NCBI RefSeq assembly: GCF_007004725.1
Contig: NZ_ML660168.1
Span: forward strand, 186,001-250,000
Source of the DNA: Aliikangiella coralliicola
GTDB taxonomy: Bacteria; Pseudomonadota; Gammaproteobacteria; Enterobacterales; Kangiellaceae
DNA: 64,000 nucleotides
Direction: 5' to 3'
Shown: positions 44,057 through 62,803 of the stretch, one piece after another
How positions within the stretch are numbered: position 1 is the stretch's first letter
Layout: every line of letters begins with the position of its first letter
Position numbers and translations under genes: made by a program
Notes under the pieces: generated by a model
Database searches by the model: none
The model's input: only the letters and a program-made list of their open reading frames with translations
What the model was told of the DNA's origin: nothing

Positions 44057-44326
44057 TTATCGACGTAATCCCAAGCTACCTATCAGAGCAGTGTATCTTT
44101 CGACATTTTTCCCTTTAAGGTAATCAAGTAATTTACGACGTTGGCTAACCATTCGTAACAAACCACGACGTGAGTGATGGTCATGAATGTGCTCTTTGAA
44201 ATGGCTTTGCAGGTGATTGATTTGATGACTTAACAAAGCTACCTGAACTTCAGGAGAGCCAGTATCACCTTCACCACGTGCATATTCTGCAACAATCTTA
44301 GCTTTTGCTTCAGCAGTTAGTGACAT
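44057..44326 (-). CDS. rpsO: Ribosomal protein S15
   Basis: 89 residues from [12 protein letters not shown], the standard length. It binds 16S rRNA early in small-subunit assembly. Typical blocks are [38 protein letters not shown] (regions about 20-58) and the end [15 protein letters not shown] 44326 has GGAG upstream; the frame extends to 44371 without a good site. It precedes pnp, as usual, but truB does not precede it here. Confidence 0.98.
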
Positions 44327-44343
44327 ATAAAATACTCCAATTA

Positions 44344-44361
44344 GTACTACTTCAATAGTAC
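44344..44361 (-). promoter_or_regulatory. Hairpin in the rpsO leader
   Basis: GTACTA (44361-44356 on the mRNA) pairs with TAGTAC (44349-44344) around a TTGAAG loop. It ends only a few bases before the GGAG ribosome-binding site of rpsO. S15 represses its own translation through leader structures in several bacteria, so this is a candidate, by analogy only. Confidence 0.5.
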
Positions 44362-44471
44362 GACTTAACAAACAACACAGCCGATCACTAATTCAGCCAT
44401 GTCAGGACGGGCGAATTGTACAGGAGGCAATAGGGCCAGGCAAGTTTTACCCTGTAAAATCAGGGAGAAAT

Positions 44472-47280: not shown

Positions 47281-47467
47281 TATCAATAATAAATTCGATA
47301 TTGATAGCCCCGGAGCGCATACGATAACAAATTTTTTTGCTCTGTGCAGGTATTAGTTTTGGAAATGTCGATGGATTCCAATCTCCACAAATTAGTTAAA
47401 TTCTCCATTTAACCTCAAGGTCTTATGTAATCAGAAAATAGCCATTGACTCAAGCGAACTATTGACG

Positions 47468-48436
47468 CTAATTTTTACGACAACATAAAATTTGCCCAAT
47501 CGATTGCCCACTTTGCCCAGGCAAGGGCTCAAAAAGGTCGATGATAACACTACTGGAATTAAGAAACTCCGTTATATTAGCAATATCTAAATCGGTAATT
47601 GCAGCACTTAACATGGCGTTTTGTCGCTCTGCATAAGCATCTAATTCATCAGAGACCCGGTCAAACCAACTTAATACGTCGGCACTGGAATATTGCTCCA
47701 TCTTGCCATACATCTGACCAATATCCTGAAATATTTTCACCAGAGTTTTTCCGACTGTCGTGTTAGACGCAGGCGCAAGAAGTTTTTTGGTCGCTTCAAC
47801 CGCAGGTGCCAACAAAATATCTGCGTTCTGAAAATCTCTTTGAGAACCTGTTTGGTTAACAATAGCATATCCAGCTGCAAATGCATTTCTTGCTAATGGA
47901 ACAACTTCTGTAGCCTTAAATTCATTAATAATATTCAAATTATTTTTACATTCTTGATAAATTCCACTTCCCTTTAAATGCATTACAAACATTAAAATCC
48001 CACAATCAGATAAAACTCTGACAGCTTCTTTTATTCCCTGAATGCCAGCATATTCAATTCCAAATTGACTCACAATAATATCAAATTGCTTATCGTTAAA
48101 AGCAAGCTCGCGCGCATCCGCTACACTCGCGTTCACCGTCGGCCATTGTGATTTAATCGCGCTAATTGCGCCTTCACTAAAATCCGCGCAATAAAAATTG
48201 ACATTAGTATCCAGGTTAGTTGCTATTTCAATGGCGTTTGCAGTAACAACACCATTGCCGCAAGCAATATCGAGCAAATTAAATTGCTCTGGCTTTACCG
48301 AAAATTGTTCGGTAAAAAAACGATTCCAGGTTGTCGCAAGTGTTTTTTGTAATTCACTACCAGACTGATAGGCACCATTTTCTATAGTGTCCAACCAGTA
48401 GCTATCCCAACCCAGTGACCCGGCGTTTTCAGTCAT
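47468..48436 (-). CDS. SAM-dependent methyltransferase
   Basis: 322 residues. A class I methyltransferase fold is clear: motif I in NLLDIACGNGVVTANAI, motif II in NFYCADFSEGAISAIK, motif III in VADARELAFNDKQFDIIVSQFGIEYAG. The N-terminal YWLDTIENGAYQSG may be a substrate cap. It is 35 bp downstream of the TPR-sulfotransferase, on the same strand and almost certainly co-transcribed. The acceptor is unknown; a link to the product of the sulfotransferase is inferred. Confidence 0.85.
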   Translation of the reverse strand: MTENAGSLGWDSYWLDTIENGAYQSGSELQKTLATTWNRFFTEQFSVKPEQFNLLDIACGNGVVTANAIEIATNLDTNVNFYCADFSEGAISAIKSQWPTVNASVADARELAFNDKQFDIIVSQFGIEYAGIQGIKEAVRVLSDCGILMFVMHLKGSGIYQECKNNLNIINEFKATEVVPLARNAFAAGYAIVNQTGSQRDFQNADILLAPAVEATKKLLAPASNTTVGKTLVKIFQDIGQMYGKMEQYSSADVLSWFDRVSDELDAYAERQNAMLSAAITDLDIANITEFLNSSSVIIDLFEPLPGQSGQSIGQILCCRKN

Positions 48437-48471
48437 AAATTATCTCAGTGTTTCCAATTAATCTAATAAAC

Positions 48472-50109
48472 TTACGGTGTGATACTCTCAAGATGCTTTT
48501 CATAGTGACGCCATCGTTCACTCGATCTCGTATATAAAGGTTCCCGCACCTGCCACAAACTGGCTGTTTTAACCTGGTTGTTCCGCTGATGAAAATCTAG
48601 ACAGCCAGATTCCCACTCCAATCCACAAAAATCAAGCAAGCTTCTCACGGTTTCTTCTGGTTTACTCACTAACTCTTCATAATTCAGATCGTAAATATCA
48701 TGATGAAAAAAAGTTTTCCAATGGTCCATCAATCGTTGGTATTGAGTATAATAGTGATTGATATCGCTTAATGAGTTTGCATAACGAAACTGCTCTGACA
48801 ATTGTTGAAAATAAATCGACAAACAATTATCAAGTTTGTTGCGGACAGTGTGAATAATTTTTGCCTCTGGAAATAGCTTTTTGATCAAACCTAAATACTG
48901 AAAATTGTCCGGTCGTTTGTCAGTTAATAGTTCAGCATCAGGAAAACGGGCATTGCAATGTTCTCGATATTCCTGGGCCAATGTTGCCAAATCATTTTCA
49001 GATATTTTTTCAACCGAACTGGGAAAAGGCGACAACCGGTTTTCAGTTAGTTCTGGAAAATACGATAACTCACCACCCGCGGTAATTTTTGAATGTCCGG
49101 CAAGAATTTGTTCCGCTAAAGTGGAACCTGAACGGAACATGCCACATATAAAAACCACCTTACCATTTTCCGCAGAGTTTCGGCTAACAAACCAGTCGCT
49201 CGAAAATGTTTTCATCAAATCACTAAGATAAACTTCATGATTTTGATGTTTATACTGAGGTACTCGTTTTCGGCTCAATTCATTCGCACGATGATAATAA
49301 TGAATGGCGTCATCATATTGACCACAATCATCATGTACTTTACCAAGAGAAAACATCAAACCTTCTTGTGTTAATGGATCGACGTTGATTTTTCTTGAAG
49401 CGCGTTTTAATTTTTTAATGATTGGATCATCCGCTCGAGAAATTCTCAGGGCGTTACTCATTCTGACCAGAGCATTCAAATATCCAGGATCTTGTTTAAG
49501 CACTTCTTCGTAAAGTGCCACCGCATTCTCTTTATGTCCTTGCTCTTCGAGTAATCCTGCTAGATTAAATTTCGCCGAAAGATAATTACCATTAGTTTTT
49601 AGTGCCGTTTCAAAACAATCTTTTGCTTCCTGTTTTTTTCTCATTTCTGAATAAATGACACCAATATTGTTGTAAACCTCTTCTGGCTGACTAATATTGT
49701 TTTTCAAGGCTTGTTGGTAGGCGTTCACAGCCTCATAAAGCTCACCTTTTTGCTTCAGTATGATAGCTAAATTAAAGTAGGTATCTGCGTTATCGGGATT
49801 GCACTTTAAATAGTTTTTATAGCAATTTATCGCGTCATCGATCCGGTTGAATCTTAGTAGTACATTGGCCAGACTATCACAGTAAAATAATTCAGCTGGC
49901 TTAAGTTTAACCAACGCGCTGAGGCACTGAATGGCTTTTTGGTTTTGATTTGAATTGAGAAAGAGCTCAACTTGTAATTGTAAAACCTGTTCCTGGTGTT
50001 CTTTCAGCTCAAGCAATCTAATGTAAATAGACTCTGCAGCATCATACTGACCTTGGTTTGCCAGTCTTTTTGCTTGATCGAGTTGCTCGATAAATTCTGA
50101 ATATTGCAT
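48472..50109 (-). CDS. TPR-containing sulfotransferase
   Basis: About 545 residues from ATG 50109 (MQYSEFIEQL). The N-terminal half (about 1-270) is made of tetratricopeptide repeats such as NADTYFNLAIILKQKGELYEAV and PEEVYNNIGVIYSEM. The C-terminal half is a sulfotransferase domain, with the PAPS-binding loop FICGMFRSGSTLAEQILAGH and the 3'-phosphate motif IHTVRNKLDNCLSIYFQQ. It is similar in layout to bacterial tyrosylprotein-sulfotransferase-like proteins found next to TonB receptors. The TPR region would bind a protein or peptide. There is no signal peptide, so it acts in the cytoplasm. Paired with the methyltransferase in one operon. Confidence 0.9.
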   Translation of the reverse strand: MQYSEFIEQLDQAKRLANQGQYDAAESIYIRLLELKEHQEQVLQLQVELFLNSNQNQKAIQCLSALVKLKPAELFYCDSLANVLLRFNRIDDAINCYKNYLKCNPDNADTYFNLAIILKQKGELYEAVNAYQQALKNNISQPEEVYNNIGVIYSEMRKKQEAKDCFETALKTNGNYLSAKFNLAGLLEEQGHKENAVALYEEVLKQDPGYLNALVRMSNALRISRADDPIIKKLKRASRKINVDPLTQEGLMFSLGKVHDDCGQYDDAIHYYHRANELSRKRVPQYKHQNHEVYLSDLMKTFSSDWFVSRNSAENGKVVFICGMFRSGSTLAEQILAGHSKITAGGELSYFPELTENRLSPFPSSVEKISENDLATLAQEYREHCNARFPDAELLTDKRPDNFQYLGLIKKLFPEAKIIHTVRNKLDNCLSIYFQQLSEQFRYANSLSDINHYYTQYQRLMDHWKTFFHHDIYDLNYEELVSKPEETVRSLLDFCGLEWESGCLDFHQRNNQVKTASLWQVREPLYTRSSERWRHYEKHLESITP

Positions 50110-50223
50110 TTTAGTCAACCTGAAAGATTTTAATAGCAAACTGCGGCTACTTATCTATTTATGGCGCAAGCCAAATTTCAACTAAGCTAAATCAAGGCTA
50201 TTGAGTATGACAAAATTGAAGCA

Positions 50224-50272: not shown

Positions 50273-53161
50273 TTACAGTCGGTAAGTTACACCAGCAAAG
50301 ATATAGCGTCCCAGAATGTCGTATGACCCAGGGAAAGCATTACCATTACCGACACCAGATGGTGCGTTAGGAATGATAGGTGGCTCTTCATCAAGTAAGT
50401 TTTTGATACCAAATCTTAATGTTGTGCTATCCATCACATCCCAGGTTGCACCCACATCCAGATAAGTTTCTGCATCTAGATCGGTTGGGCCGTTGTTAAG
50501 CTCGTCAACTTCACCGAAGTAACGAAGCGTTCCTGTAATGCTCATATCCCATGGCGTTACCCAGGTAGTCACTAAATTCCAGCGCCACTCAGGTCGTGGA
50601 TTTTCACACGCATTTCGATCCCAGAAACCGGCACACTCAATAACGTCAGATACAGGCGTTGGTTTCTTATCAAATGCTAATAGATGTGTTCCTAATAAGT
50701 TGAAGTTCAACTTACCATTTTCACCCATTTCAAATTCGTAAGAAACGTCAAAGTCAATCCCTTCAGTTTCAAGGAAACCGATATTCAGGTTATTCTGAAT
50801 AATGTTATCTTGACCAACCCACAAGGTTTGTGCAGGACCACGATTAATCATTGCACAGAACTCTGGTAGATTATCGATAGCACACTTCTCCAGGATAAAC
50901 TCAGCTGGAATAGTGTCGATCGCATCTTGAACATCGATTTTGAAATAGTCTAAAGCAACGTCTAAACCTTCCATCGGCTGAAATACCACACCAAATGAAG
51001 TGGTTTCAGATTCTTCCGGCTCAAGATCAGGGTTACCACCTTCTAAACCATTGTACTGACCCGCAGGACTATCAGCGATAGTTCCGTAGCGATCTGCCGT
51101 AACCCCAGTTCTAGCACACTGTTCTGCAGTGTAGGTTGGAGTCGCGCCGGCACATGGATCTTCGTCCATATTGAAAAGACCAATTCCAATCGGCTCAAAT
51201 AACTCACGAATGTTTGCGTGACGAGTCGCGCTCTGGAAACTTGCTCTGAACTTCAAGCTGTCATTCACTTCCCAGTCTAACGCGACTTTATAGGTGTCTG
51301 TCGTCTTACCGGTTGAGTAATCTGAATAACGATAACCTAAGTCAACGGTGATGTAATTTGCAAAGTCACTGTCTTCAACAATTGGTAAGCTGAATTCAGA
51401 AAAGACTTCGTTAACATCTAACTTACCGCTAACAACAGAAGTTGGCCCACCTTGTCCAGCACCATCACCAGAGATAAATCCTTGGTCAGGGTTATAGTCC
51501 AATGTATCTTCTCGATACTCAAGACCTACAACGATGCTAGCTCCATCAGAAGCACCAGGCATGACCACACCGGCATCAGTTAGGTCTCCACTCAAGAAAG
51601 CGACAGTTTGCTTAGACTCAGTTTCACCGGTAGCAAACAAAGGCAATACCAGGTAGTTAACCATTGCGTCAGTTACAGCGCCGGTTTCAAATACGTTCCA
51701 TGGAACACAGTTTGGATCGCTACCGTCGATAACCGATTGACAAACGATGTTGCCATTAGCATCGGTAGTCGCGTTCAGCGCTCTGATAATTTTAGTGGTT
51801 GATAAATCGTTGTTGTAAACTTCACTCATCACAACAGTTGAATAACTGGTGAAGGCGTCATAGCTCCAACTTTCGTTGATATCGCCTTTAACACCAACCA
51901 AGCCACGATATGAAGTATGTCTCAGGTCGTGATTTCTCGGTCCACCTTCAACATTTCTTCGGCCGACGTAAGCAGTTTGAACATCTGCGGCGGTCAAACC
52001 AAATTGGCCACACAATTGTTGAAATTGTTGTGCTGACAAAAACGGGTTAGAACATGGAATCGTATTAGTAACGAAAAAAGCACCTGATGGTGCGATCTGT
52101 GCATTACTTTTATCGTCCATAAAGTTGAACTCGGCGTACATTTCAGCATCATCGCTAATTTCATAATGTGCGAAAACACCAGCAGTTCGACGTTGATCAG
52201 GCCGTTGAAAGTGGTTCAAAGGTCCATAGTTATAAAGTGAGTTAAACGGAACGAAATCAGTTCCAGCAACCTGGAAGTCAAAACCGCCCGCAAAATCGGT
52301 TACACGGGTATTAGGAATCGTACTCGAACCGGCACATTCCAAGTTGTTATTGGCATCCAAATCTAGCGCACAGCTACTGTAATCACGAGAATCTTGAGTA
52401 ATCGCCTCAATGTCTCGAATTGTTGCATAAGCGGTTACATTGCCTTTTCCGTTAGCGCTGTTTGCACCAATCAAAATAGAAAAGTCATGGGTATCACCGT
52501 CAGAAACGCTGCCGTCAGCCGTTTCAAATCCTGAAGTCGTTACCAGGTTTTGAATCATGCTATTGTCGTTGTCATGTTGATAAAAGCTGTATTGATAATC
52601 AACAGAAACGCCTTCAAAGTCCCTTTTCATAATGAAGTTGATTACACCGGCAATCGCATCAGAACCGTAAGTTGCTGATGATCCACCCGTTAACAACTCA
52701 ACACGCTCAATCAGCGCAGCAGGGATTTGGTTAATATCAGCGCCCGCGCCATCAACCTTCGGAGAACCCGTTGGTAAACGTCGGCCGTCGATTAAAGTTA
52801 AAGTTCTTTGAGCTCCCAAGAATCTTAAATCTACAGTCGCAGTACCAACAGCACCGTTAGCGGTTCCTGATACTTGACCGGGGAATACCTGGGGAAGTTC
52901 GTTCAGTAGGTCTTCTACTTTGGTAATACCACGAATGGTAAAGTCTTCTGATCCAACAGTTGTGACTGGCGAAGCAGTCATCAGGTTACTTCTTTTAATT
53001 CTGGAACCTGTTATTACAATTTTTTGAGATTCCTCGTCTTCTTCAGCCTCTGTTTCAGCAGCAAATGTATTCGCCGCAAAAGAAGCACTACTTAGGGTAC
53101 CGCAAACAAGCGCAAAGCGAATTGCTTTAGACAGCTTGCTATGCTTATTACTCACTAACAT
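50273..53161 (-). CDS. TonB-dependent receptor 2
   Basis: 962 residues, outer membrane. The signal peptide ends near AANTFAAETE. The TonB-box-like QKIVITGSRIKR is followed by a plug (about 60-190, with VDLRFLGAQRTLTLIDGRRLP) and a barrel whose last residues are GVTYRL. It differs from the other three: the motif SFRAPDM is replaced by QSATRHANIREL, and the C-terminus lacks the GRE segment. ATG 53161 has GGGAG. A triple repeat element lies about 150 bp upstream. It is divergent from the winged-helix regulator gene. The ligand is unknown. Confidence 0.93.
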   Translation of the reverse strand: MLVSNKHSKLSKAIRFALVCGTLSSASFAANTFAAETEAEEDEESQKIVITGSRIKRSNLMTASPVTTVGSEDFTIRGITKVEDLLNELPQVFPGQVSGTANGAVGTATVDLRFLGAQRTLTLIDGRRLPTGSPKVDGAGADINQIPAALIERVELLTGGSSATYGSDAIAGVINFIMKRDFEGVSVDYQYSFYQHDNDNSMIQNLVTTSGFETADGSVSDGDTHDFSILIGANSANGKGNVTAYATIRDIEAITQDSRDYSSCALDLDANNNLECAGSSTIPNTRVTDFAGGFDFQVAGTDFVPFNSLYNYGPLNHFQRPDQRRTAGVFAHYEISDDAEMYAEFNFMDDKSNAQIAPSGAFFVTNTIPCSNPFLSAQQFQQLCGQFGLTAADVQTAYVGRRNVEGGPRNHDLRHTSYRGLVGVKGDINESWSYDAFTSYSTVVMSEVYNNDLSTTKIIRALNATTDANGNIVCQSVIDGSDPNCVPWNVFETGAVTDAMVNYLVLPLFATGETESKQTVAFLSGDLTDAGVVMPGASDGASIVVGLEYREDTLDYNPDQGFISGDGAGQGGPTSVVSGKLDVNEVFSEFSLPIVEDSDFANYITVDLGYRYSDYSTGKTTDTYKVALDWEVNDSLKFRASFQSATRHANIRELFEPIGIGLFNMDEDPCAGATPTYTAEQCARTGVTADRYGTIADSPAGQYNGLEGGNPDLEPEESETTSFGVVFQPMEGLDVALDYFKIDVQDAIDTIPAEFILEKCAIDNLPEFCAMINRGPAQTLWVGQDNIIQNNLNIGFLETEGIDFDVSYEFEMGENGKLNFNLLGTHLLAFDKKPTPVSDVIECAGFWDRNACENPRPEWRWNLVTTWVTPWDMSITGTLRYFGEVDELNNGPTDLDAETYLDVGATWDVMDSTTLRFGIKNLLDEEPPIIPNAPSGVGNGNAFPGSYDILGRYIFAGVTYRL

Positions 53162-53309: not shown

Positions 53310-53334
53310 ATTGAAAAATGTTGAAAAATATTGC
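53310..53334 (-). promoter_or_regulatory. Triple direct repeat upstream of receptor 2
   Basis: On the minus strand GCAAT, TCAAC and TCAAT occur exactly 10 bp apart (plus-strand 53330, 53320, 53310), 149-173 bp before the start codon. With one gap the element can be aligned with that before receptor 3 (shared core ATTTTTCAACA). It is a candidate site for an OmpR/PhoB-type protein. Confidence 0.6.
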
Positions 53335-53379
53335 ATTTCCATAAAACTAGATTAGGGTATTTCAAACAAGCCTTTCGGC

Positions 53380-53397
53380 ATTGAATATTTATTGAAT
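53380..53397 (-). promoter_or_regulatory. Paired ATTCAAT repeats upstream of receptor 2
   Basis: Two copies of ATTCAAT on the minus strand, 11 bp apart, 219-236 bp before receptor 2. They repeat the pattern of the main element and may be a second binding site. Confidence 0.5.
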
Positions 53398-53739
53398 TAC
53401 TCCAACAAAAAACCTATTTTTATGGCCAACGACATTTTGGCAAAACTATTAAAAAACGAAATACTATTTCTGTAACTTTTTCAAAAACCTAGTTTTTTTC
53501 GCAAAAAAAAACTCTTGCGGAGATTAGAACTTCTTAAAAAAGCAGCAAATAAAGTCAAACCTCCCTTAAGTGGGAAAATTGTCCCACACTCATAGAAATT
53601 GTTAACAAGTTAGAACAATACATTTTAAATTTTCTCGACTAATTAAGTGGACGAAAAATAATTTGAAACATTTGGAAAAACATTCAAAGGCTAATTGCAC
53701 CTAAAATAGTCTTGAATTACGAAGTCATTCGTTGTTTAA

Positions 53740-53755
53740 TACGAACAAGTTCGTA
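53740..53755. promoter_or_regulatory. Perfect inverted repeat upstream of the winged-helix gene
   Basis: TACGAAC, AA, GTTCGTA, 52-67 bp before the winged-helix start. Related half-sites (CGAAGTCATTCG at 53720-53731 and GCGAACTTA at 53763) lie close by. It could be an operator of this gene. Confidence 0.55.
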
Positions 53756-53806
53756 GATACTTGCGAACTTACCATCCGCTTATTCTGATAACAGAGAATA
53801 ATTGAT

Positions 53807-54262
53807 ATGAATGCTATAGAGCCCAGGGATTTGAACCAGACAGCAATTCGCTTTTGTGAATGTTTATTAGATCCGGAAACCCAGACATTACAAACCAAAC
53901 ACGGCTTTGTTCGGTTACGCAGTAAACTTTGGTTAGTATTAATCGAGCTCACCAGGCAACCGAATAAATTGGTGCTGAGAGAGTCTCTAGTCAAAGATAT
54001 CTGGCGAGGCAATAACTATACAGGCGAACAGGGACTAACTCATGCTATCTGCCATCTGCGCAGAATACTCAAAAGTTACAACATCCCTGCAAAAATCATC
54101 ACTCTGCCCAAGAAAGGCTATATCTTGCAAAAGGAAAACGATGTATTTAGCGCCGATTCGGCGATGCAGAGCATAACGCCCACTCAAGGTTTGGATGTGT
54201 TTAACCAGAGCTACAATCAAATTGATAATTCCAAGATTGAAGTAAGATACACAATCGGCTAA
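53807..54262 (+). CDS. Stand-alone OmpR/PhoB-type winged-helix regulator
   Basis: 151 residues. Residues about 20-112 form the OmpR/PhoB C-terminal DNA-binding domain: LDPETQTLQTKHG, VRLRSKLWLVLIELTRQPN, LVKDIW, then the recognition helix region QGLTHAICHLRRILK and the wing KIITLPKKGYIL. There is no receiver domain and no membrane helix, unlike two-component regulators and CadC. The tail (112-151) is polar. It lies between receptors 2 and 3, next to a sulfotransferase gene, and its family binds direct repeats spaced 10-11 bp. It is therefore the best candidate to bind the repeats before receptors 2, 3 and 4. How its activity is controlled is unknown. Confidence 0.85.
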   Translation: MNAIEPRDLNQTAIRFCECLLDPETQTLQTKHGFVRLRSKLWLVLIELTRQPNKLVLRESLVKDIWRGNNYTGEQGLTHAICHLRRILKSYNIPAKIITLPKKGYILQKENDVFSADSAMQSITPTQGLDVFNQSYNQIDNSKIEVRYTIG

Positions 54263-54540
54263 GGAATTATCATCGGTTAGCTCGAAAGCTACAGCATGTG
54301 TGGCGTCACAACGCTGCATGTGCTCACTACGCAAAAATCCCTTCAATTTCTTTAACTTACACCCAATTTTATACAACATCTGATATGTGAAATAGCCGTT
54401 TTTCAGTTACTCCAGTCATGCTCGAAAACGGTCAGGCTTTAGATTCAGCCTTATTAATCCTCGATTTATACCTTTATTTTCTATAGGCTTAGCCTAGTTT
54501 AATCACACCGCAAGATTAGTAATTAATGTTAGGGGAGCTC

Positions 54541-55329
54541 ATGCCTAGAATCGTCGCAAAACAAGACAACCTCAATGAACTAAATCAGAATTATGAACAA
54601 AAGCCGCTTAAACACCCCGTTTTTCTTAATTCGGTCCCTAAGTGTGGTACACACCTCATCAGAAATATTTTTAGAATGTTTGTTCCTGTTTCGCAGCAAT
54701 ATCACCAGACATTTATTCAGATTCCAGTCTTAAATCAACATCTGGCTGCATTTTCAACACAAAACCCCTATTTAAGTTGGGGACATTTACTTTTTTCAGA
54801 CGACTCAGCTACAGCAACTCATCAGGTCAAACAACTCATCATCGTCCGCGATCCCTACAGTTGGGTTTTGGCCCGAGCGAGATTTTTTCTGTCAGATACA
54901 TTTCAAGGTAATCTGGAGCATTTGAAGAGTGGCAAAATATCAGTAGAACAAGTACTGAACATGATGATTTTTGGAATTTACCAGAAAGCACCGACGCTGC
55001 AGGAAATTTATACACATAACGCAGTCTCCTGGTTGGGGACTCATACTGAGCTGGTAAAATTTGAAGATATTATTCAGCATCTAAAAAATCTGGACTCCCC
55101 GCAAGCTAAGGACTATTTTCAGGGTTTATTCGATGCCTGTGAAATGGGAGAGCTTCCTCCTGATTGGAAAGAGCGAATAAAAGTAGGTTCCGACAGAAAA
55201 CAAAGCGGTACTGCGAGAGAGAATCTATCTGGGAAAAAATTTGATATTCCTAATGAACTACCTGAAACGCAAAAACAAATGGTCGAATTTGCTGCGCCGG
55301 GTTTAAGAAAAATACTGGGGTATGAATAA
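54541..55329 (+). CDS. Sulfotransferase domain protein
   Basis: About 262 residues from ATG 54541, which has GGGGAG 6 bp upstream; ATG 54526 is in frame but has no such site. The PAPS-binding loop is NSVPKCGTHLIRN and the 3'-phosphate motif IIVRDPYSWVLARARFF. Later LVKFEDII and the C-terminal FAAPGLRKILGYE fit the family. Unlike the other sulfotransferase it has no TPRs. No signal peptide is seen. It follows the regulator gene by 278 bp and precedes receptor 3. The acceptor is unknown. Confidence 0.88.
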   Translation: MPRIVAKQDNLNELNQNYEQKPLKHPVFLNSVPKCGTHLIRNIFRMFVPVSQQYHQTFIQIPVLNQHLAAFSTQNPYLSWGHLLFSDDSATATHQVKQLIIVRDPYSWVLARARFFLSDTFQGNLEHLKSGKISVEQVLNMMIFGIYQKAPTLQEIYTHNAVSWLGTHTELVKFEDIIQHLKNLDSPQAKDYFQGLFDACEMGELPPDWKERIKVGSDRKQSGTARENLSGKKFDIPNELPETQKQMVEFAAPGLRKILGYE

Positions 55330-55351
55330 ATACTTTGACATGGAATTCTGA

Positions 55352-55392
55352 ATAAAAAAAAACCCTCGGATCGGCAGATCATAGAGGGTTTA
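55352..55392. terminator. Terminator-like hairpin after the sulfotransferase gene
   Basis: AACCCTC (55361-55367) pairs with GAGGGTT (55384-55390), with GATC in both loop halves. Downstream on the plus strand only TTT follows, while nine A lie upstream, so it looks stronger for the minus strand. It is the only hairpin after the gene. Confidence 0.55.
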
Positions 55393-55647
55393 CAACCAGG
55401 GATGTAGCAATAATGCTACCCCTCTATGAAACCACTTTTCCACCCTGATAAACAATAGGACCCCGGTTGAATTTAAATTGAAAATATATTGCGTAAATAT
55501 TTAAAAATGTTTCAGTCATTTATTAACAAAAAAAGATCAAAAATTTAAAATTTAATTCAATAATTTTTATATGCAATATTTACCTTGACCCCCCTAGATA
55601 AGTTTACTTTTTGTTCAAAAAATCACATAAATTATCTCAAAACCAAA

Positions 55648-55682
55648 ATTCAATAATTTTTCAACACCGGTTCAATATTCAA
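55648..55682 (+). promoter_or_regulatory. Triple direct repeat upstream of receptor 3
   Basis: TTCAATAATTT, TTCAACACCGG and TTCAATATTCA begin at 55649, 55660 and 55671, exactly 11 bp apart, 113-146 bp before the start codon. A further TTCAA starts at 55678. Candidate site for the winged-helix regulator. Confidence 0.65.
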
Positions 55683-55794
55683 TTAGTTGTTTTTTTGCTT
55701 TGATACCGCCTGCGGAAATTACGAGCAATTTTTACTTGCCTGTCTGTTCCCAAATAAAAAGATAACAACCTCTTAAATTAGGGTAAATCAATCA

Positions 55795-58671
55795 ATGAAG
55801 AAGAAATTATTCAAAATAAAGCCTTTGTCGTATGCACTAAAAAGTGCACTTTATGCGGCGGCTGGAATGATGGCATTTAATGTCGCATCCATCCAAGCTG
55901 CAGAAGAAGATGAAGCCGCAAGTGACGATAACAAGATTATCGTTACAGGATCACGTTTAAGCAGAACTGATGTTGAAGGCGCAGCACCGGTTCACATCAT
56001 TACTGCCGAAGAAATTGAAGCCAATGGTTTTACAACGGCATTTGAAGCTTTAAAAGCACTGACTCAAGTTAATGGTTCCAATCAAGGAGCTCAAGACGGC
56101 GGTACTTTCACACAGGGCGCTGACTCTCTAAACCTTCGCTCCTTCGGCGCAGGTAGAACGCTGACGTTGGTTAACGGTAGAAGAATGGCAGATTACCCTC
56201 TTCCATTTAACGGTCAAAGTAACATCGTCAATGTTGCTAATATCCCTTCAGTTATGATCGAAAGAATTGAGGTTCTATCATCAGGCGCTTCAGCAATCTA
56301 CGGTTCAGATGCAATAGCAGGCGTATTTAACATCATATTGAAAGACGAAGTCGATGGTCTGCATGCTACAGCACGCTTCGGAGATACCTCCGATGGTGGT
56401 GGCGAAAGCTACAGATTCCAACTTGTTGGTGGACATCAAACTGACAAACTAAATATGGTATACGGACTAGAGTTGTTTAATCGTGAACCAATAATGGCAA
56501 GTGACAGAGACTATATGGACTCTATTCTTGACAATCCTGATGTGATCAATGGTATATCAACTCCAGTAAACTCTCGCTCGTTTCTCGTTCTAGATCCATT
56601 TGATATTGATGGTGATGGCTCTCGATATATTGACCCAGGCCAAGCAACTTGTGACACACTTTCACATTTAGCAAACGGCACTATCGAGTATTCAACACGA
56701 CCAGGCGCGGGTAATTTCTGTGGGACCGCTTATGACATAGGTTTTAGTAGTATCCGTAACGCGAAAGACAACGTAACAGGCTACTTAAATTTATCATACG
56801 AATTAAACTCTTCTCACGAGTTATTCGCGACTATGGTGGTAACCGACTCAAGAACCGAATTTAATACAGGAACTACCTATTGGGCTTATTCTGGCGAATC
56901 AGGTATCGGAGATAACTACTTCCTAAATTCCGCTTCTCCCGATTTAGCAGGAATAGGTGGTCGACCAGAATACTGGCAAAGGCTTATTACACCTGAAGAA
57001 ACATCGAATAACGATAATAGATTTTCAGAAACAGCAATTGACATTACCATTGGTGCTAATGGTGAATTTTTTGGTGGGTTTGACTACGAAGCTTCTTTAA
57101 GCATTTCACAATACGACTTAACAAGAAAACGTCGTTTGATTGATGCTGCCACTGCAGATGCTTTCTTTTTAGGTGCGCAACAAGGAACAGCAAACTTCGG
57201 CCAAGGAACATGGAACGTATTCAACGCTGACATATCCAGACTTTATCAACCGCTAACCACCGCAGAATATGATTCTATTACTGGTATCGACAAAACCACA
57301 GCGGACTCTAAAAATGTCTCGACAACATTGGTATTAACCAACGAAGATATTTTCGAAATGCCTGCGGGTTCTGCCGGTTTAGCGTTAGTCGTTGAAGCAG
57401 CAACTCAAGAATATGAAATTAATCTTGATCCAAAATTAATCAACGGCGAATGGTTCGGATTTACCGGAACAGGCGGTGGCGGTGAGCGTGACCGATATGC
57501 ACTTGGCGCTGAATTTAAAGTTCCTTTAACTGAAGATTTGCAAGCCACCTTTGCAGCTCGCTGGGATAAATATGACGACGAGACCAATGTTGACGACGCC
57601 ACAACTTTTAATATTGGGTTAGAGTATCGTCCGATTGAAAGCCTATTAATCAGAGGAAGTTATTCAACCAGTTTCCGCGCGCCAGACATGCATTACGTAT
57701 ACGCTGCACCGAGTGGTTACTTCGCAAACGTGACAGACCAATATTTATGTCGTCGTGATCAATTAGCTGAAATCACACTACCTAACGGAAATCTCGATTA
57801 CAACCTTTGTACACTCAATGCAAGTGTAGATGGTGTTGGTTTAGACGGAACCTACAACATTGAAGGTGCTCGCCAGGGTTCAACTTTCCTTGAAGAGGAA
57901 GAAGGCGAATCAGCAACTATCGGTTTTGTTTTTGACTTTACCGATGACATGAGTCTAACAGTTGATTACTACCAAATTAAGCTTGAAAACGCGGTACGTG
58001 ATCGAAGCAGAGCAAGTTTGTTAGAAGTTGAGGCTGATTGCCGACTTGGTGTAACAACAGGTGGTAACTCTGTCGATATTAATTCTGCAGAATGTCAAAA
58101 TGTACTAAGTTTAATCACACGAAATACAGCTAACGGCACAATTACACAAGAGTTCATTGACTCAATTGTTACTGGCCCTATTAACGCTGCACTTCGTGAA
58201 ACTTCAGGTTTTGATGTCGCTTATAACTACAGACTTGTTACTGACTCAATCGGTGATTTTGCATTCAGAGTGAACTACAACATTACTGATTCTGACGAAG
58301 ACCAGCAGTTTGCCGGCGACGAAGTTCGTGACAGACGTCACCACAAACAGTTCTTTGACTTCAGAAGTCAGGTTAATGTGTCTGCTAACTGGAAAATCGA
58401 TGACTGGAGCACAACATTGTTTGCTCACTACACTGGTTCTGTTCCAAACTGGGCAGAAACAGACAGATGTTGTGAAGTTACAACCTATAACCTTTCTGTT
58501 GCCTATCAAGCAACTGATGATTTGAAAGTAGGTTTATTTGTTAAGAACTTACTGGATGAAAATCCTCAGCAAGATTCTACATTCAACACCTACCCATACT
58601 ACCAAACAGGTCAGTATGACGGTTATGGTCGCGAATATAGCTTGCAGTTTGATTATGCTTTCGGAGAATAA
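55795..58671 (+). CDS. TonB-dependent receptor 3
   Basis: 958 residues, outer membrane. The signal peptide ends near VASIQAAEED. It has NKIIVTGSRLSR, a plug (about 50-180, with SLNLRSFGAGRTLTLVNGRRM and IERIEVLSSGASAIYGSDAIAGVFNI, cited by ends), and a barrel with the motif SFRAPDM. It belongs with receptors 1 and 4 rather than 2. The last residues are FDYAFGE: the expected terminal Phe is followed by Gly-Glu, which is unusual for a beta-barrel signal. Several Cys pairs are predicted in loops. ATG 55795 is behind TAGGG. It follows the triple repeat. Confidence 0.93.
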   Translation: MKKKLFKIKPLSYALKSALYAAAGMMAFNVASIQAAEEDEAASDDNKIIVTGSRLSRTDVEGAAPVHIITAEEIEANGFTTAFEALKALTQVNGSNQGAQDGGTFTQGADSLNLRSFGAGRTLTLVNGRRMADYPLPFNGQSNIVNVANIPSVMIERIEVLSSGASAIYGSDAIAGVFNIILKDEVDGLHATARFGDTSDGGGESYRFQLVGGHQTDKLNMVYGLELFNREPIMASDRDYMDSILDNPDVINGISTPVNSRSFLVLDPFDIDGDGSRYIDPGQATCDTLSHLANGTIEYSTRPGAGNFCGTAYDIGFSSIRNAKDNVTGYLNLSYELNSSHELFATMVVTDSRTEFNTGTTYWAYSGESGIGDNYFLNSASPDLAGIGGRPEYWQRLITPEETSNNDNRFSETAIDITIGANGEFFGGFDYEASLSISQYDLTRKRRLIDAATADAFFLGAQQGTANFGQGTWNVFNADISRLYQPLTTAEYDSITGIDKTTADSKNVSTTLVLTNEDIFEMPAGSAGLALVVEAATQEYEINLDPKLINGEWFGFTGTGGGGERDRYALGAEFKVPLTEDLQATFAARWDKYDDETNVDDATTFNIGLEYRPIESLLIRGSYSTSFRAPDMHYVYAAPSGYFANVTDQYLCRRDQLAEITLPNGNLDYNLCTLNASVDGVGLDGTYNIEGARQGSTFLEEEEGESATIGFVFDFTDDMSLTVDYYQIKLENAVRDRSRASLLEVEADCRLGVTTGGNSVDINSAECQNVLSLITRNTANGTITQEFIDSIVTGPINAALRETSGFDVAYNYRLVTDSIGDFAFRVNYNITDSDEDQQFAGDEVRDRRHHKQFFDFRSQVNVSANWKIDDWSTTLFAHYTGSVPNWAETDRCCEVTTYNLSVAYQATDDLKVGLFVKNLLDENPQQDSTFNTYPYYQTGQYDGYGREYSLQFDYAFGE

Positions 58672-58701
58672 TCACTTAGGTTAAGCGTTTTTAAGAAACG
58701 T

Positions 58702-58741
58702 ACAAAAAGCCGGTTAGCGAATGTTAATCGGCTTTTTTGTT
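58702..58741 (+). terminator. Terminator after TonB receptor 3
   Basis: AAAAAGCCG (58704-58712) pairs with CGGCTTTTT (about 58729-58737) with short inner pairing, and a T run follows on the plus strand. About 35 bp after the stop. Confidence 0.75.
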
Positions 58742-58938
58742 GCTTTGATGAAACACTCTGGACTCTAGGCCGCTGCTGTCAATAGAATGTCTTTTCGACT
58801 TAGCTTAACTACAAACTACCCGCGTGAAGAGCTCTCCTACAGACTTTGATTCACTCAACGATTTATCAAATATCAATATAAGAAAATCATTCCAATCAAA
58901 TAAGGCTTCGTCTGTAAAGGGCGTTAAGCTAAGCTACC

Positions 58939-59442
58939 CTAATTATTTGCAGATACCAGCTTTAAAACGTCACAGATAAACGATGTTTTTTCTCGCGTGT
59001 ATTTTTCTCTATCGCCATTAGATTCTCTCGCAAGCTGACGTTTTAAGGCTGCATATTCTTGGGCAACGATGGGATGAGAACGCAAGTAGTCGCGAAATGC
59101 CAATCTCTCAAACCACAATTTACTTTCAAAAGGAACAAGATGAAGGTGGTGCGTCCTGATTTCGGGGGATGGCTTACAAAACCAATGCATTACATCGCCT
59201 TTGTAGGGATGATAACAATAGCCATTGACTTCCATTATTTGTATCGCTTTTTTTGAAGATTCAAGAGTTTTTACACCTACCATGATATCAATAACAGGTT
59301 TTGCAGCCAGCCCTTTAACAGCTGTACTTCCAACATGTTCAATGGTTCCGTGAATGAAATCTTCGAGTAAGGAGCCTATAAAGCGTCTCTCTTCATCAAA
59401 CATATCAGGCCAATCAGGGTTGTATTCTAGTATTGATATCAT
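58939..59442 (-). CDS. GrpB family protein (UPF0157)
   Basis: 167 residues of the GrpB/UPF0157 family, which has a nucleotidyltransferase-like fold but no settled function. The marks are YNPDWPDMFDEERRFI, HGTIEHVGSTAVKGLAAKPVIDIMVGV (regions about 8-60), GDVMHWFCKP and THHLHLVPF. The VGSTAV and DIMV parts fit the catalytic GS...D pattern of the fold. It seems monocistronic, between receptors 3 and 4, and may not belong to the same pathway. Confidence 0.88.
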   Translation of the reverse strand: MISILEYNPDWPDMFDEERRFIGSLLEDFIHGTIEHVGSTAVKGLAAKPVIDIMVGVKTLESSKKAIQIMEVNGYCYHPYKGDVMHWFCKPSPEIRTHHLHLVPFESKLWFERLAFRDYLRSHPIVAQEYAALKRQLARESNGDREKYTREKTSFICDVLKLVSANN

Positions 59443-59530
59443 CGCTTTCTACTGTAATTTCTATTAATCATAATAGTAACACCTCAATACCTGATTACTT
59501 TTACAAATGTCGATCACTTAATAAATGAAA

Positions 59531-59563
59531 TAAAAAAAGCCCCATCAAAGATGAGGCTTTTAA
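59531..59563 (-). terminator. Terminator after TonB receptor 4
   Basis: AAAGCC and CATC pair with GATG and GGCTTT around AAA (about 59536-59560), with a T run on the minus strand. It is about 26 bp after the stop of receptor 4. Confidence 0.8.
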
Positions 59564-59588
59564 ATGGCTAACTGACTAACTTAAGAAG

Positions 59589-62363
59589 TTAGAAAGAAAC
59601 AGTGTAAGTAACTGAGTACTCTCTGCCAATCGGGTTAGAATAACCACCATTGTTGAAGAACCAAGGCCAGTTATTATTGGTCGGATCTTCTGCTGGGTCT
59701 TCGTTAAACACGTTGTTAATACCAAGGCTTACTCTGCCCGCGTCGCCGAAATCATATCGACCACTGATATTAGTTAATGCATAAGTATCGATAAACTCAT
59801 CAGCAGTACAGTTAACACCATTAACGCCGCACATTTCATCTACCCAAACATAACGAACCGTCGCTCCCCAGTTATCTCTAGTCCAATCAACCGTCAGGTT
59901 GAAACGATAGTCAGGTTGAGTCGCGATACCCGTATTTTCAACTACAGGAGAGGTTTCATTGAACTGAGTTTCAAATGAATCAACGTAAGCCAACTCACCC
60001 TTGAACTTAAATTCACCAGCTTGTTCCGTAGTCAACTTATAGTTTACTGTAAAGTCAGCGCCCAGAATTTCCTGGAATGACAAGTTACGAGCTGTTGCGG
60101 CGATATTTGCCAAAACACCTTGTGGGTTACGTGAAATGTTCTCACAGAAAATCCCGTTTTGATCACAGCTATCAATAATGAATTGAGGAGTTGGTGTATT
60201 AACAATTTCCTCAAGTCTGATATTGTAAATATCCATGCTGAAATCGAGATCATCCGTTGCTTGCCAAACAATTCCGAAGTTATAGTTTTCACCTTCTTCT
60301 TCTTGTAGCGCAATGTTAGATCCAGTTGTCAATGGAACAGATTGTTCTCTCCAGACTGCTGCCGCTGCGGTAGAACAGAATGCGTTAGCAATTGGAATTC
60401 TTACACCAGGATTATTTGGATCTAAACAGAAGTTAGGATCATTTACAGTTTGGAATGCTGAAGTCGTCGCGCCAAATAAACGTTGCATATCAGGGGCACG
60501 GAAACTTTCACCGGCGGTGAAACGCAGCATCAACTCTTCAATTGGTCGATAAGTAACAGCGATACGAGGACTTACTGCGCTTCCTGTTTCAGACGCATCA
60601 TCGTAGTTATCATGTCTTACAGCAATATCAACTTCTAATTGATCCGTCACAGGTAACGCAATCTCAAAACCTATGCCGGTATGATCTCTCTCACCCGCGC
60701 CAGCTGAACTACCATCAAAGGCATCACCAGCTAGTGAAATTGGATCAGCTGTATTAAAGAAACTTTCACGCTGAAAATCTGAGAACACCGCGAACTGGGC
60801 ATTACCGCCACTTAGCTCAAAAGGTAGCTCGCCAGAAATCTGGAAGTCCGCACTGAAGTTGTCAGATTCTGCTTCACGAAGTGAATCAAAACTAACGCTA
60901 TCAATCACTGACTGCGGAATAATCTGGAATAAATCCAACCCGTTGGTCACAGCATTGTTGAACGATGAGCTAATAATGTTACGTCGTTTATTAGTAAAAC
61001 GAATTTTATTGTAACTAATAGAAGCTTCCCAATCGTACATTGCATCACCGAAACTTCCTTCAAGACCAATCAGGACATTAACGCCATCATTACGAAGTTG
61101 ACCAGTTCTGTCTCCAAACTCAAATAAACGACGACGGAAGAAACCATCACGCTCATTTGCAGTTCCAGTTGTTGGGTTGTTAGCGGAACCAGCAGGAACA
61201 AGACCCCAAATATAATCTGGAGAACCATCTGCTAAAAATCCAAAATCAGTACCAGCTAACACTGTACCCGCCGCTGAAGGAGCAACAGTTGTCAAGTTAC
61301 TTCCTGGCTGCTGTCCGCCCCACCACGCATTGTAGTAGTTTGGCTCAAGATTTGTTCGAGTTTCATAAGTCGAGAAACCTGCACGAACATATCCACTCAA
61401 GTCTGGCGTGAATTCTCTATCGACTCTTACCGACAAGGCTGCGCGCTCATTCTCAGGGAACAATTGGCGATGCTGAGTTCGGTTGTAGCGGCAGAAATCA
61501 CCAGGAATTCCGGTATTAACCAATCTGCTACCTAGTGGATCATTTGGATCACCACAAAGTGGGTAGGCGATAGTTTCAGTTGAAAAGTCAGGGTTAACAG
61601 CTTGGAAACTTGCACCACCAGAACTTAACACACCTCTTGGGTTAGCAAGATCTGAAGCAGCATAATCTCGCTGGCTTGCCGCCAGTTCATCGTTATGTTG
61701 ATATTCTGCTATAACGTTCACAGTTGTTTTACCGCTAGTTGCGCCAGCAACAACAGAAACACGTTCATTTTGATAGCCGCCGTCAGACGTATCGCCTAAG
61801 CGTACAGAAACTTCGGTTCCTTCAAAATCTTTTCGGGTGATAACATTGATTACACCAGAAATTGCATCAGATCCGTAAATAGCCGATGCACCATCGGTCA
61901 AAATTTCAACCCTTTCTATCATTGATGCCGGAATCGCTGATAAATCAACAAAGTTACTGGTTCCAGAATTCGCTACTGGATAAATGGGAATTCGCTTGCC
62001 ATCGATCAAGGTCAATGAGCGACCGTTACCGAAGCCACGCAAGTTAACTGATGATGCACCAGGTACAAACCCGAATGTGAAACTTTGGTCTACTGAACCA
62101 CCAGTGTTTTGTGCCAAAGAGTCCAATGCATCTTGTAAGGTTGAATAACCTTGGTTATCCATATCTTCTCTAGTGATAACAACAACAGGTGACGCGCCTT
62201 GTGCATCGATTCTTTTAATTCGACTACCTGTTATTACAATTTTTTGATCGTCTTCACTTTCTTCCGCTGCTTGTACTCCCGGAACAGCGAGAATAGCAAT
62301 TCCAAGTGCAGCAATACTTGAACGTACTGCTTTTGAAATTGGTGAGTAATTATGTACTTTCAT
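59589..62363 (-). CDS. TonB-dependent receptor 4
   Basis: 924 residues, outer membrane. The signal peptide ends near PGVQAAEES. It has QKIVITGSRIKR, a plug (about 45-175, with SSVNLRGFGNGRSLTLIDGKR) and a barrel with ESFRAPDMQRLFG. The end, NWPWFFNNGGYSNPIGREY, is nearly the same as in receptor 1, and the last residue is Phe, as is usual for barrels. It is probably a duplicate of receptor 1. ATG 62363 has GAGG upstream. A triple repeat lies 174-200 bp upstream. The ligand is unknown. Confidence 0.93.
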   Translation of the reverse strand: MKVHNYSPISKAVRSSIAALGIAILAVPGVQAAEESEDDQKIVITGSRIKRIDAQGASPVVVITREDMDNQGYSTLQDALDSLAQNTGGSVDQSFTFGFVPGASSVNLRGFGNGRSLTLIDGKRIPIYPVANSGTSNFVDLSAIPASMIERVEILTDGASAIYGSDAISGVINVITRKDFEGTEVSVRLGDTSDGGYQNERVSVVAGATSGKTTVNVIAEYQHNDELAASQRDYAASDLANPRGVLSSGGASFQAVNPDFSTETIAYPLCGDPNDPLGSRLVNTGIPGDFCRYNRTQHRQLFPENERAALSVRVDREFTPDLSGYVRAGFSTYETRTNLEPNYYNAWWGGQQPGSNLTTVAPSAAGTVLAGTDFGFLADGSPDYIWGLVPAGSANNPTTGTANERDGFFRRRLFEFGDRTGQLRNDGVNVLIGLEGSFGDAMYDWEASISYNKIRFTNKRRNIISSSFNNAVTNGLDLFQIIPQSVIDSVSFDSLREAESDNFSADFQISGELPFELSGGNAQFAVFSDFQRESFFNTADPISLAGDAFDGSSAGAGERDHTGIGFEIALPVTDQLEVDIAVRHDNYDDASETGSAVSPRIAVTYRPIEELMLRFTAGESFRAPDMQRLFGATTSAFQTVNDPNFCLDPNNPGVRIPIANAFCSTAAAAVWREQSVPLTTGSNIALQEEEGENYNFGIVWQATDDLDFSMDIYNIRLEEIVNTPTPQFIIDSCDQNGIFCENISRNPQGVLANIAATARNLSFQEILGADFTVNYKLTTEQAGEFKFKGELAYVDSFETQFNETSPVVENTGIATQPDYRFNLTVDWTRDNWGATVRYVWVDEMCGVNGVNCTADEFIDTYALTNISGRYDFGDAGRVSLGINNVFNEDPAEDPTNNNWPWFFNNGGYSNPIGREYSVTYTVSF

Positions 62364-62536
62364 TTTTTTTCCTCATGAGACTTCAGTTGAGTTAAATCCC
62401 TAATGTGAGATTTGTTATTTGCCTGTCATAACTCGACTACTTTTATTTATTATGTTTATGCTTTTCTTTTTTTATTTACTGAATCCAAGCAAGCTATATA
62501 AAACTAAATATATCTTGGTCTAACAAGTTCAAACAT

Positions 62537-62563
62537 ATTGAATTTACATTGAGTAATCATTGA
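62537..62563 (-). promoter_or_regulatory. Triple direct repeat upstream of receptor 4
   Basis: On the plus strand ATTGA begins at 62537, 62548 and 62559, exactly 11 bp apart; on the minus strand these read TCAAT. The element matches that before receptor 3 at about 22 of 31 positions. It lies 174-200 bp before the start codon of receptor 4. Confidence 0.65.
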
Positions 62564-62786
62564 ATAAAGCTTTACCTAAATAGAAATTACTATTCACAAA
62601 AGCCGATGTGGAAAAAATTCATTTCAATTTGCAATAAAAATTTCAGCTAAAATTTTGATTAACATATCAACAGTTTTTTAATAAATCGCTATAAATAGGC
62701 TAAATTACGCACAATTCAAAATCCTCAATTAATAATTTAGATGATGAACAAAAATTAATTTTATGATTTTTAGATTGAAAAAAATT

Positions 62787-62803
62787 ATTGAATAATTATT
62801 GAA
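62787..62803. promoter_or_regulatory. Paired ATTGAA repeats, distal site
   Basis: Two ATTGAA copies 11 bp apart (62787 and 62798), between receptor 4 and oxyR. A related ATTGAA at 62774 is 13 bp away. It may serve receptor 4, oxyR or both. Confidence 0.4.

Follow-up and report, generated by a model that had tools for sequence, protein, structure and literature searches.

Phased TTCAAY arrays, a stand-alone OmpR/PhoB-type protein gene and a conserved RNA-like element at a TonB receptor locus of Aliikangiella coralliicola

We analysed a 64,000-nucleotide stretch of the genome of the gammaproteobacterium Aliikangiella coralliicola (assembly GCF_007004725.1, contig NZ_ML660168.1, positions 186,001 to 250,000 of the forward strand), hereafter called the window, to which all coordinates refer unless another contig or locus is named. 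In this window, four genes for TonB-dependent receptors (R1-R4) surround the gene for a stand-alone OmpR/PhoB-type winged-helix protein of 151 residues (53807-54262, + strand). Tandem TTCAAY units, spaced by about one helical turn, are located upstream of R2, R3 and R4, and also upstream of a short RNA-like element with a conserved seed. Together these features probably represent a local OmpR/PhoB-type regulon, in which the 151-residue protein would control R2, R3 and R4 as well as a small RNA that would repress a further receptor encoded elsewhere in the genome. How a cell chooses among dozens of TonB receptors is, to our knowledge, poorly known, and the locus would offer a compact case in which a small sensorless protein comes with a defined operator and with a small RNA whose target is predicted.

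The genome comprises 7.04 Mb in 22 contigs, of which C1, C4, C7, C8 and C10 are referred to below, and it carries the code G000; G001 is a genus-mate, while G067 comes from a different family of the same order. An initial annotation of the window had proposed a small OmpR/PhoB-type regulon consisting of the 151-residue protein and the receptors preceded by repeats. This proposal fits the domain of the protein, the linkage to a receptor gene in 17 of 22 regulator loci and the occurrence of arrays in 5 of 13 genomes. It was incomplete, however, in that the RNA-like element and the array in front of it had been overlooked.

Phased arrays and the stand-alone OmpR/PhoB-type protein

The array upstream of R3 (55649-55683, + strand) consists of TTCAAT at 55649, TTCAAC at 55660 and TTCAAT at 55671, at two steps of 11 bp, plus a TTCAAT at 55678; nowhere else in the genome are three units at exact steps of 11 bp matched without a mismatch. 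R4 is preceded by units at 62537, 62548 and 62559, again at steps of 11 bp (62537-62564, - strand), of which the middle one, CTCAAT, has one mismatch; further TTCAAT units are found upstream at 62774, 62787 and 62798 (62774-62803, - strand). For R2, units at 53310 and 53320 and a weak third one, TGCAAT at 53330, follow each other at 10-bp steps (53310-53335, - strand), and a second TTCAAT pair with a spacing of 11 bp starts at 53380 and 53391 (53380-53396, - strand). The distances from the units to the start codons amount to 117-146 bp for R3, 179-201 bp for R4 and 154-174 bp for R2, the weak R2 unit being included by arithmetic. The array before the RNA-like element is directed away from R3 and has units at 55466 and 55477 and a degenerate one at 55488 (55466-55493, - strand), and a lone TTCAAT is present at 55556. 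Upstream of R1, no TTCAA directed toward the gene was found in G000, G001, G005 or G006; one TTGAA occurs in G005. The positions given in the initial annotation, with exact 11-bp triples before R3 and R4, a 10-bp triple before R2, all roughly 113-200 bp upstream of the start codon, and no repeats before R1, were thus borne out, apart from the mismatch at 62548 and the weakness of the third R2 unit.

The arrays were scored with a position matrix derived from 30 units of other genomes, which were picked by eye, and steps of 10 or 11 bp were allowed. The 300 bp before each of 57 Plug-domain genes were compared with 158 noncoding upstream regions of other genes, drawn from 400 kb of this genome; receptor starts were set by script, and the receptor upstream regions were left untrimmed at neighbouring genes, whereas the background regions were trimmed. 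In this comparison, R3 (26.7), R2 (23.6) and R4 (22.5) took ranks 1 to 3 among the 57 receptor upstream regions, with the next receptor at 19.7 and R1 at 1.4. All three exceeded every one of the 158 background regions, the best of which reached 20.9. Repeats equally common in unrelated intergenic regions, which the initial annotation had named as an outcome that would count against it, were thus not observed. Exact unit pairs at 11 bp numbered 36 in the whole genome, as compared to 23 in the reversed control, and 5 of the 36 fall within 9.4 kb at the locus. Expressed as density, there are 5 such pairs per 2.0 kb at the locus versus 2 per 53.8 kb of background noncoding DNA. A regulon extending over the whole genome received little support, since the excess of two-unit sites is small and three-unit matches elsewhere lay inside an open reading frame in 12 of the 19 loci viewed.

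Relatives showed the phasing as well. The intergenic DNA flanking regulator homologs of 13 genomes, 14,035 bp in total, contained 87 TTCAAY units, while 300 dinucleotide-preserving shuffles of this DNA contained 38 on average. The 11-bp pairs numbered 15 (shuffle mean 0.05, maximum 1), with 10 of them outside G000, and there were 9 pairs at 21-22 bp (shuffle mean 0.05). Exact 11-bp pairs were distributed over G000 (5), G001 (6), G005 (1), G006 (1) and G067 (2). Conservation in relatives, which had been suggested as a check, was accordingly seen in 5 of the 13 genomes, whereas the remaining 8 had no exact pair, so that this check upheld the proposal only in part. G002 has one pair at 22 bp; in both G002 and G006, the two R2 units have this spacing, and exactly midway between them sits a unit with one mismatch. 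Phased units (0, 11, 33) were also found on the receptor side of the G067 locus.

The 151-residue protein contains a single Pfam domain, PF00486, at residues 35-107 (39.1 bits, cut-off 26.2), followed by a tail. No receiver domain with a phospho-acceptor aspartate was found in the protein, in which 34 residues precede the PF00486 domain according to Pfam, and no ToxR/CadC-type transmembrane segment was seen by eye in the 44 residues after it. A match to the CadC model was weak (residues 13-120, 32.9 bits at a cut-off of 400). Judged from these features, it is an OmpR/PhoB-type DNA-binding-domain protein and neither a response regulator nor a membrane regulator of the ToxR/CadC type. Its conserved segment LTHAICHLRR is probably the recognition helix. 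In an alignment of 25 homologs, THxxCHLR was present in G000, G001, G002, G004, G005, G006, G008b, G012, G018a, G018b and G067b, and the variants of this region were CQLR in G008a, YHLR in G067a, CMLR in G009, G022 and G011, CILR in G019, and CKLR in four paralogs.

Regulator matches were obtained in 40 of the 61 genomes searched, many of them being larger proteins with the domain, and syntenic orthologs are present in 8 genomes. PF00486 was above the cut-off also in the regulator homologs of G067 and G009. The best regulator matches were fetched as a sample of 22 loci, paralogs included, with many larger domain-bearing proteins falling outside it. In 17 of these 22 loci, a TonB receptor gene is located at most 1.7 kb from the regulator gene, namely in the window, in G001, G002, G004, G005, G006, G008, G012, G018, G009, G022, G011 and G067, and at the paralog loci L076, L083, L084 and L085; the receptor of L078 is partial and was identified from its N-terminal sequence alone. 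No receptor was found within this distance at L075, L077, L081, L082 and L214, the last of which spans 3 kb only. Plug-domain matches in the genome of A. coralliicola number 57 per 7.04 Mb, or about 1 per 124 kb. The regulators at L075 (9134-9541) and L077 (9038-9526) form another single-domain branch, seen in two genomes and lacking a TonB receptor nearby; they adjoin a small glyoxalase-like gene and glycine-cleavage-like genes, as identified by eye.

The regulator gene itself is preceded, at a distance of 52-89 bp, by two palindromes of the form TACGAA-N4-TTCGTA that are 22 bp apart (53718-53755), the first with one mismatch (53718-53733) and the second exact (53740-53755). A pair with the same spacing is also present before the regulator gene in G006, G008 and G018, which makes four genomes in all (L071 16177-16214; L072 4339-4376; L073 8511-8548). 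In G001 (L066), two exact copies lie at a distance of 238 bp from each other, and G005 (L070) has a single copy with a mismatch. The palindrome is absent before the regulator gene in G002, G004, G012 and G067, the loci that lack it being L068, L069, L074, L231 and L078-L081, and it had no match in the 400 kb of background. Conceivably, the palindrome pair is an operator of another regulator.

The RNA-like element and its candidate target

The RNA-like element (55354-55424, - strand) is positioned between a sulfotransferase-like gene and R3, from which it diverges. It comprises a hairpin (GGGTAGC..GCTAC), the seed AUCCCUGGUUGU and an intrinsic terminator with 9 U, and it is present as a single copy in G000. 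The element aligns across six genomes (G000, G001, G005, G006, G008 and G018). In all 9 of 9 aligned elements the seed CCUGGUUGU is identical while the terminator stems vary, the G067 copy having been found via the seed. Changes on both sides of the terminator stem occur in 4 of 7 pairs, a modest covariation; sliding its 3' side by one column gave a similar score, probably since some rows are one column off register. The fold energy was below that of shuffles in the 4 elements tested (z -2.5 to -4.4), and the seed is unpaired in the predicted folds, except that the G006 fold pairs part of it. None of the 4227 Rfam models matched 55354-55424 up to E = 5. The element may be the second effector of the regulon.

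A covariance model, applied to 40 genomes of the family, gave strong matches only in the six source genomes and weak ones at a second place in G001 and in G015, of which the latter was partly supported by a later element model (named R2, and unrelated to receptor 2). With this later model, 28 of 394 genomes of the order had matches at E <=0.05, but only the nine training sequences were strong and the rest had E >0.001. At the regulator loci of G009 and G022, the seed recurs unchanged but the terminator stem differs, and in G019 the element is absent or undetected. A pattern of the seed plus a T-run matched in 34 of 295 order genomes, among which G067 was chosen by eye as element-like, a few others being viewed as sequence. 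The neighbourhood of the G067 element played no part in finding it, but the seed did. Two homologs of the regulator, at 49% and 41% identity, are oriented toward this element, and the gene of a Plug-domain receptor is divergent from it. At locus L214 (1510-1569, contig C129 of G001), a seed and terminator with a weak model match directly follow a regulator paralog on the same strand, in a position like that of a 3' untranslated region.

The array before the element keeps a fixed distance to it. In G000, G001, G005, G006, G008 and G018, there are 51-52 nt from the start of the proximal unit to the GTAG box (52 nt in G000); in G008 and G018 this unit is degenerate (TACAAT, AACAAT) and was chosen by register, with an exact unit 11 bp further up. 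In G067, the proximal unit is found 40 nt before the box, that is one 11-bp step nearer. Furthermore, a -10-like box (TATANN or CATANN), identified by eye, starts 9 nt before GTAG in G000, G001, G006, G008 and G018.

The seed is complementary to the start region of an unlinked TonB receptor gene on contig C7 (C7:442786-445653), where a 12-nt seed complement with 2 G-U pairs lies at -19, over the Shine-Dalgarno sequence GGGGA. Among 293 start regions, all of them from G000, this run is the longest, in a tie with one region that has 5 G-U pairs and is located at -55. Ranked by pairing energy, the C7 receptor comes third among the 293 regions when the G000 seed is used, and first when that of G009 is used. 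The AGGGA part of the match is expected of any Shine-Dalgarno sequence, the remainder is not. In G009, which is of another genus, the closest homolog of the C7 receptor (52% identity) carries AACAACCAGGGA at -21, also over the Shine-Dalgarno sequence and with 12 Watson-Crick pairs. The G010 homolog has no seed complement and no element was found in G010 either, which we count in favour of the proposed pairing. Upstream of the C7 receptor gene, there is a TTCAAT-11-TTCAAT pair whose near end is 87 bp before the start. Seed pairing with the regulator mRNA was considered as well and rejected, as it was no better than background; the regulator coding start has an 8-nt perfect seed match in G000, and none of the other genomes checked had one as good without G-U pairs.

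Proposed regulon and alternative explanations

The DNA-binding domains of PhoB, KdpE and PhoP bind head to tail, with one subunit per 11-bp turn. In the same manner, the 151-residue protein would bind the tandem TTCAAY half-sites head to tail, placing one subunit on each 11-bp turn. Once bound, it would activate R2, R3 and R4 together with the small RNA that is transcribed away from R3; activation rather than repression is suggested by the arrays being located about 10 bp upstream of the would-be -35 box. The predicted small RNA would end at the intrinsic terminator and expose the conserved seed, which could then pair in the cell with the Shine-Dalgarno region of the unlinked C7 receptor mRNA and shut this receptor down. 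By repressing the C7 receptor, the small RNA would cause one receptor set to be replaced by another. Since the 151-residue protein has no sensor domain, it would act through its own level, which might be set by a second regulator at the paired palindromes before its gene.

Several observations weigh against such a regulon. Exact 11-bp pairs are absent from G002, G004, G008, G009, G011, G012, G018 and G022, and in all 8 of these genomes the regulator stays near a receptor. Helix and array match imperfectly, as THxxCHLR is present in G004 and G012, which have no arrays, and the genome-wide excess of two-unit sites (36 versus 23) is small. The element was not found in G002, in the main locus of G004 or in G012, although the regulator is present, and G011 offers no more than a diverged candidate, CTGGTTATTA plus a terminator (L080 9040-9090, model E 0.11), about 450 bp before a TonB receptor gene and between this gene and the regulator homolog. 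In G009, in G022 and probably at the second locus of G004, the seed element is part of the 5' leader of a TonB receptor gene, just before the start codon (L079 11106-11217; L078 8203-8312; L085 6719-6807), which suggests a cis-acting role. With regard to the target, seed pairing with the start regions of R1-R4 was rejected as no better than background, the homologs of the C7 receptor in G001 and G011 have no seed complement, and the background for the pairing was drawn from G000. A 15-nt seed complement at 0-1 mismatch was found in seven genomes of the genus only in the element itself. Lastly, the two-unit array of the C7 receptor has a three-unit score of 12.4, a level reached by about 6 of the 158 background regions.

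The leader position lends itself to another explanation, namely that the element is a cis-acting attenuator whose terminator sets the readthrough into the receptor gene, its free-standing copies being relics or simple terminators. In G009 and G022, the element ends about 40 nt before the receptor start codon, and the ribosome site TCAAAGAGG and the first hairpin of the element, GTCTTTGA, are complementary and can pair (L079 and L078). Moreover, the weak match at the second locus of G004 occupies the same place, and in G008 and G018 the element lies downstream of a receptor gene on the same strand. However, no same-strand gene comes after the element in G000, G001, G005, G006 and G067, where it points toward the 3' end of the regulator gene or of an inserted gene, and the free-standing elements have a phased array of their own. 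As a general account of the element we consider attenuation improbable, while for the leader elements of G009, G022 and perhaps G004 cis-acting attenuation is just as likely. It is also unlikely, in our view, that the arrays are the operator of another protein, be it another PF00486 protein, a two-component regulator or the neighbouring LysR-type protein, and that the 151-residue protein has other targets or acts as a partner. In favour of another binder, the genome has 66 PF00486 matches, a LysR-type gene adjoins also in G002, G004, G005 and G018, and the regulator occurs without arrays in G004 and G012. In addition, a TTCAAT-11-TTCAAT pair at C10:157103 (L194 7103) is located between a gene for a 711-residue protein with an OmpR-type domain (PF00486) and a divergent TonB receptor gene, and this is possibly a second system of the same design. 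Yet the arrays cluster at the regulator locus and recur beside regulator homologs in another family, and the usual binding sites of LysR proteins are inverted (T-N11-A) rather than tandemly repeated. G003 (listed as 92% complete), which had no regulator match, had no R4-type receptor at the cut-off used either; G002 also lacks the R4 type, yet its regulator is present.

That the repeats arose by chance or reflect the curvature of AT-rich promoter DNA can be given hardly any credence. The intergenic DNA is indeed AT-rich, and comparable runs of four units are found at C1:336026, C4:2071 and C8:249031, where no receptor was seen by eye within 3.5 kb. Nevertheless, dinucleotide-preserving shuffles almost never reached the observed phasing, and the distance from the array to the 5' box of the element is kept across genomes. 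Chance and AT-richness were therefore rejected as the cause on the basis of the matrix ranks, the shuffles and the low pair density in background noncoding DNA. Beyond the local regulon that we favour, a more general scheme may be put forward, which we regard as tentative and rather doubtful. In at least two families, a minimal cassette would combine a bare OmpR-type domain with a cognate RNA of deeply conserved seed around TonB receptor genes. One array type would induce the local receptors and an RNA that silences a competing receptor, and in sister lineages the same RNA would be an attenuating leader, trans-acting RNA and cis-acting leader being two evolutionary states. The shift of the element between free-standing and leader positions would be a route to study the interconversion of trans- and cis-acting RNA control.

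Related systems and neighbouring genes

A literature search by title and abstract opening retrieved no publication on the 151-residue regulator or the RNA-like element. In the GcvA-GcvB system of Escherichia coli, the regulator gene adjoins the gene of the small RNA that it activates, and this RNA represses uptake genes. The system differs from the present locus by its LysR-type regulator, its ABC-transporter targets and the divergent orientation of its genes, which are convergent here. OmpR is a complete response regulator that works with a sensor kinase, whereas the regulator in the window is a DNA-binding domain alone; here the genes for regulator, RNA and receptors are, unlike in the OmpR-OmrA/OmrB system, adjacent, and the element has no Rfam family. 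The likeness to EnvZ-OmpR and OmrA/OmrB resides in the combination of an OmpR-type regulator with a small RNA aimed at TonB receptors, which is a prediction in the present case. In Enterobacteria, as described in the part of the source consulted, an OmpR-type regulator induces OmrA and OmrB, which target the TonB receptors cirA, fecA, fepA and btuB (PMC11162775).

The sections consulted of a study on PhoP of Mycobacterium tuberculosis describe head-to-tail binding to direct repeats with an 11-bp period; binding by the isolated DNA-binding domain is cooperative, and for full-length PhoP it is better with three or four repeats than with two (PMC4832192). In contrast to the 7-bp motif with 4-bp gaps described there, the present units are TTCAAY with 5-bp gaps, and our protein has no receiver domain. 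Small RNAs with a conserved single-stranded core, SisA and CrfA, repress TonB receptor mRNAs in Caulobacter crescentus, as stated in the portion of the text consulted (PMC12559287). The predicted TonB receptor target and the conserved core or seed are shared with that system. SisA and CrfA differ in that they are alphaproteobacterial, have the core UUUCCUCCCU and involve a sponge RNA, and a linked regulator is not described in that portion of the text.

R2 (50273-53161, - strand), R3 (55795-58671, + strand) and R4 (59589-62363, - strand) each match PF07715 and PF00593, and R1 (44545-47286, - strand) was assigned as a TonB-dependent receptor by profile search. Between the regulator gene and the RNA-like element, a 267-residue protein is encoded (54526-55329) that has a sulfotransferase-like N-terminal motif, as judged by eye; it had no Pfam or NCBIfam match, and it was not seen at that place in G001, G005 and G006. 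R1 and R2 are separated by genes for a methyltransferase and a sulfotransferase with tetratricopeptide repeats (TPR; 47468-50139), and homologs of this TPR-sulfotransferase adjoin TonB receptor genes also at L066, L067 and L070. Finally, a ribosomal protein S15 leader (RF00114, 85.7 bits) was detected upstream of rpsO at 44270-44404 on the - strand.

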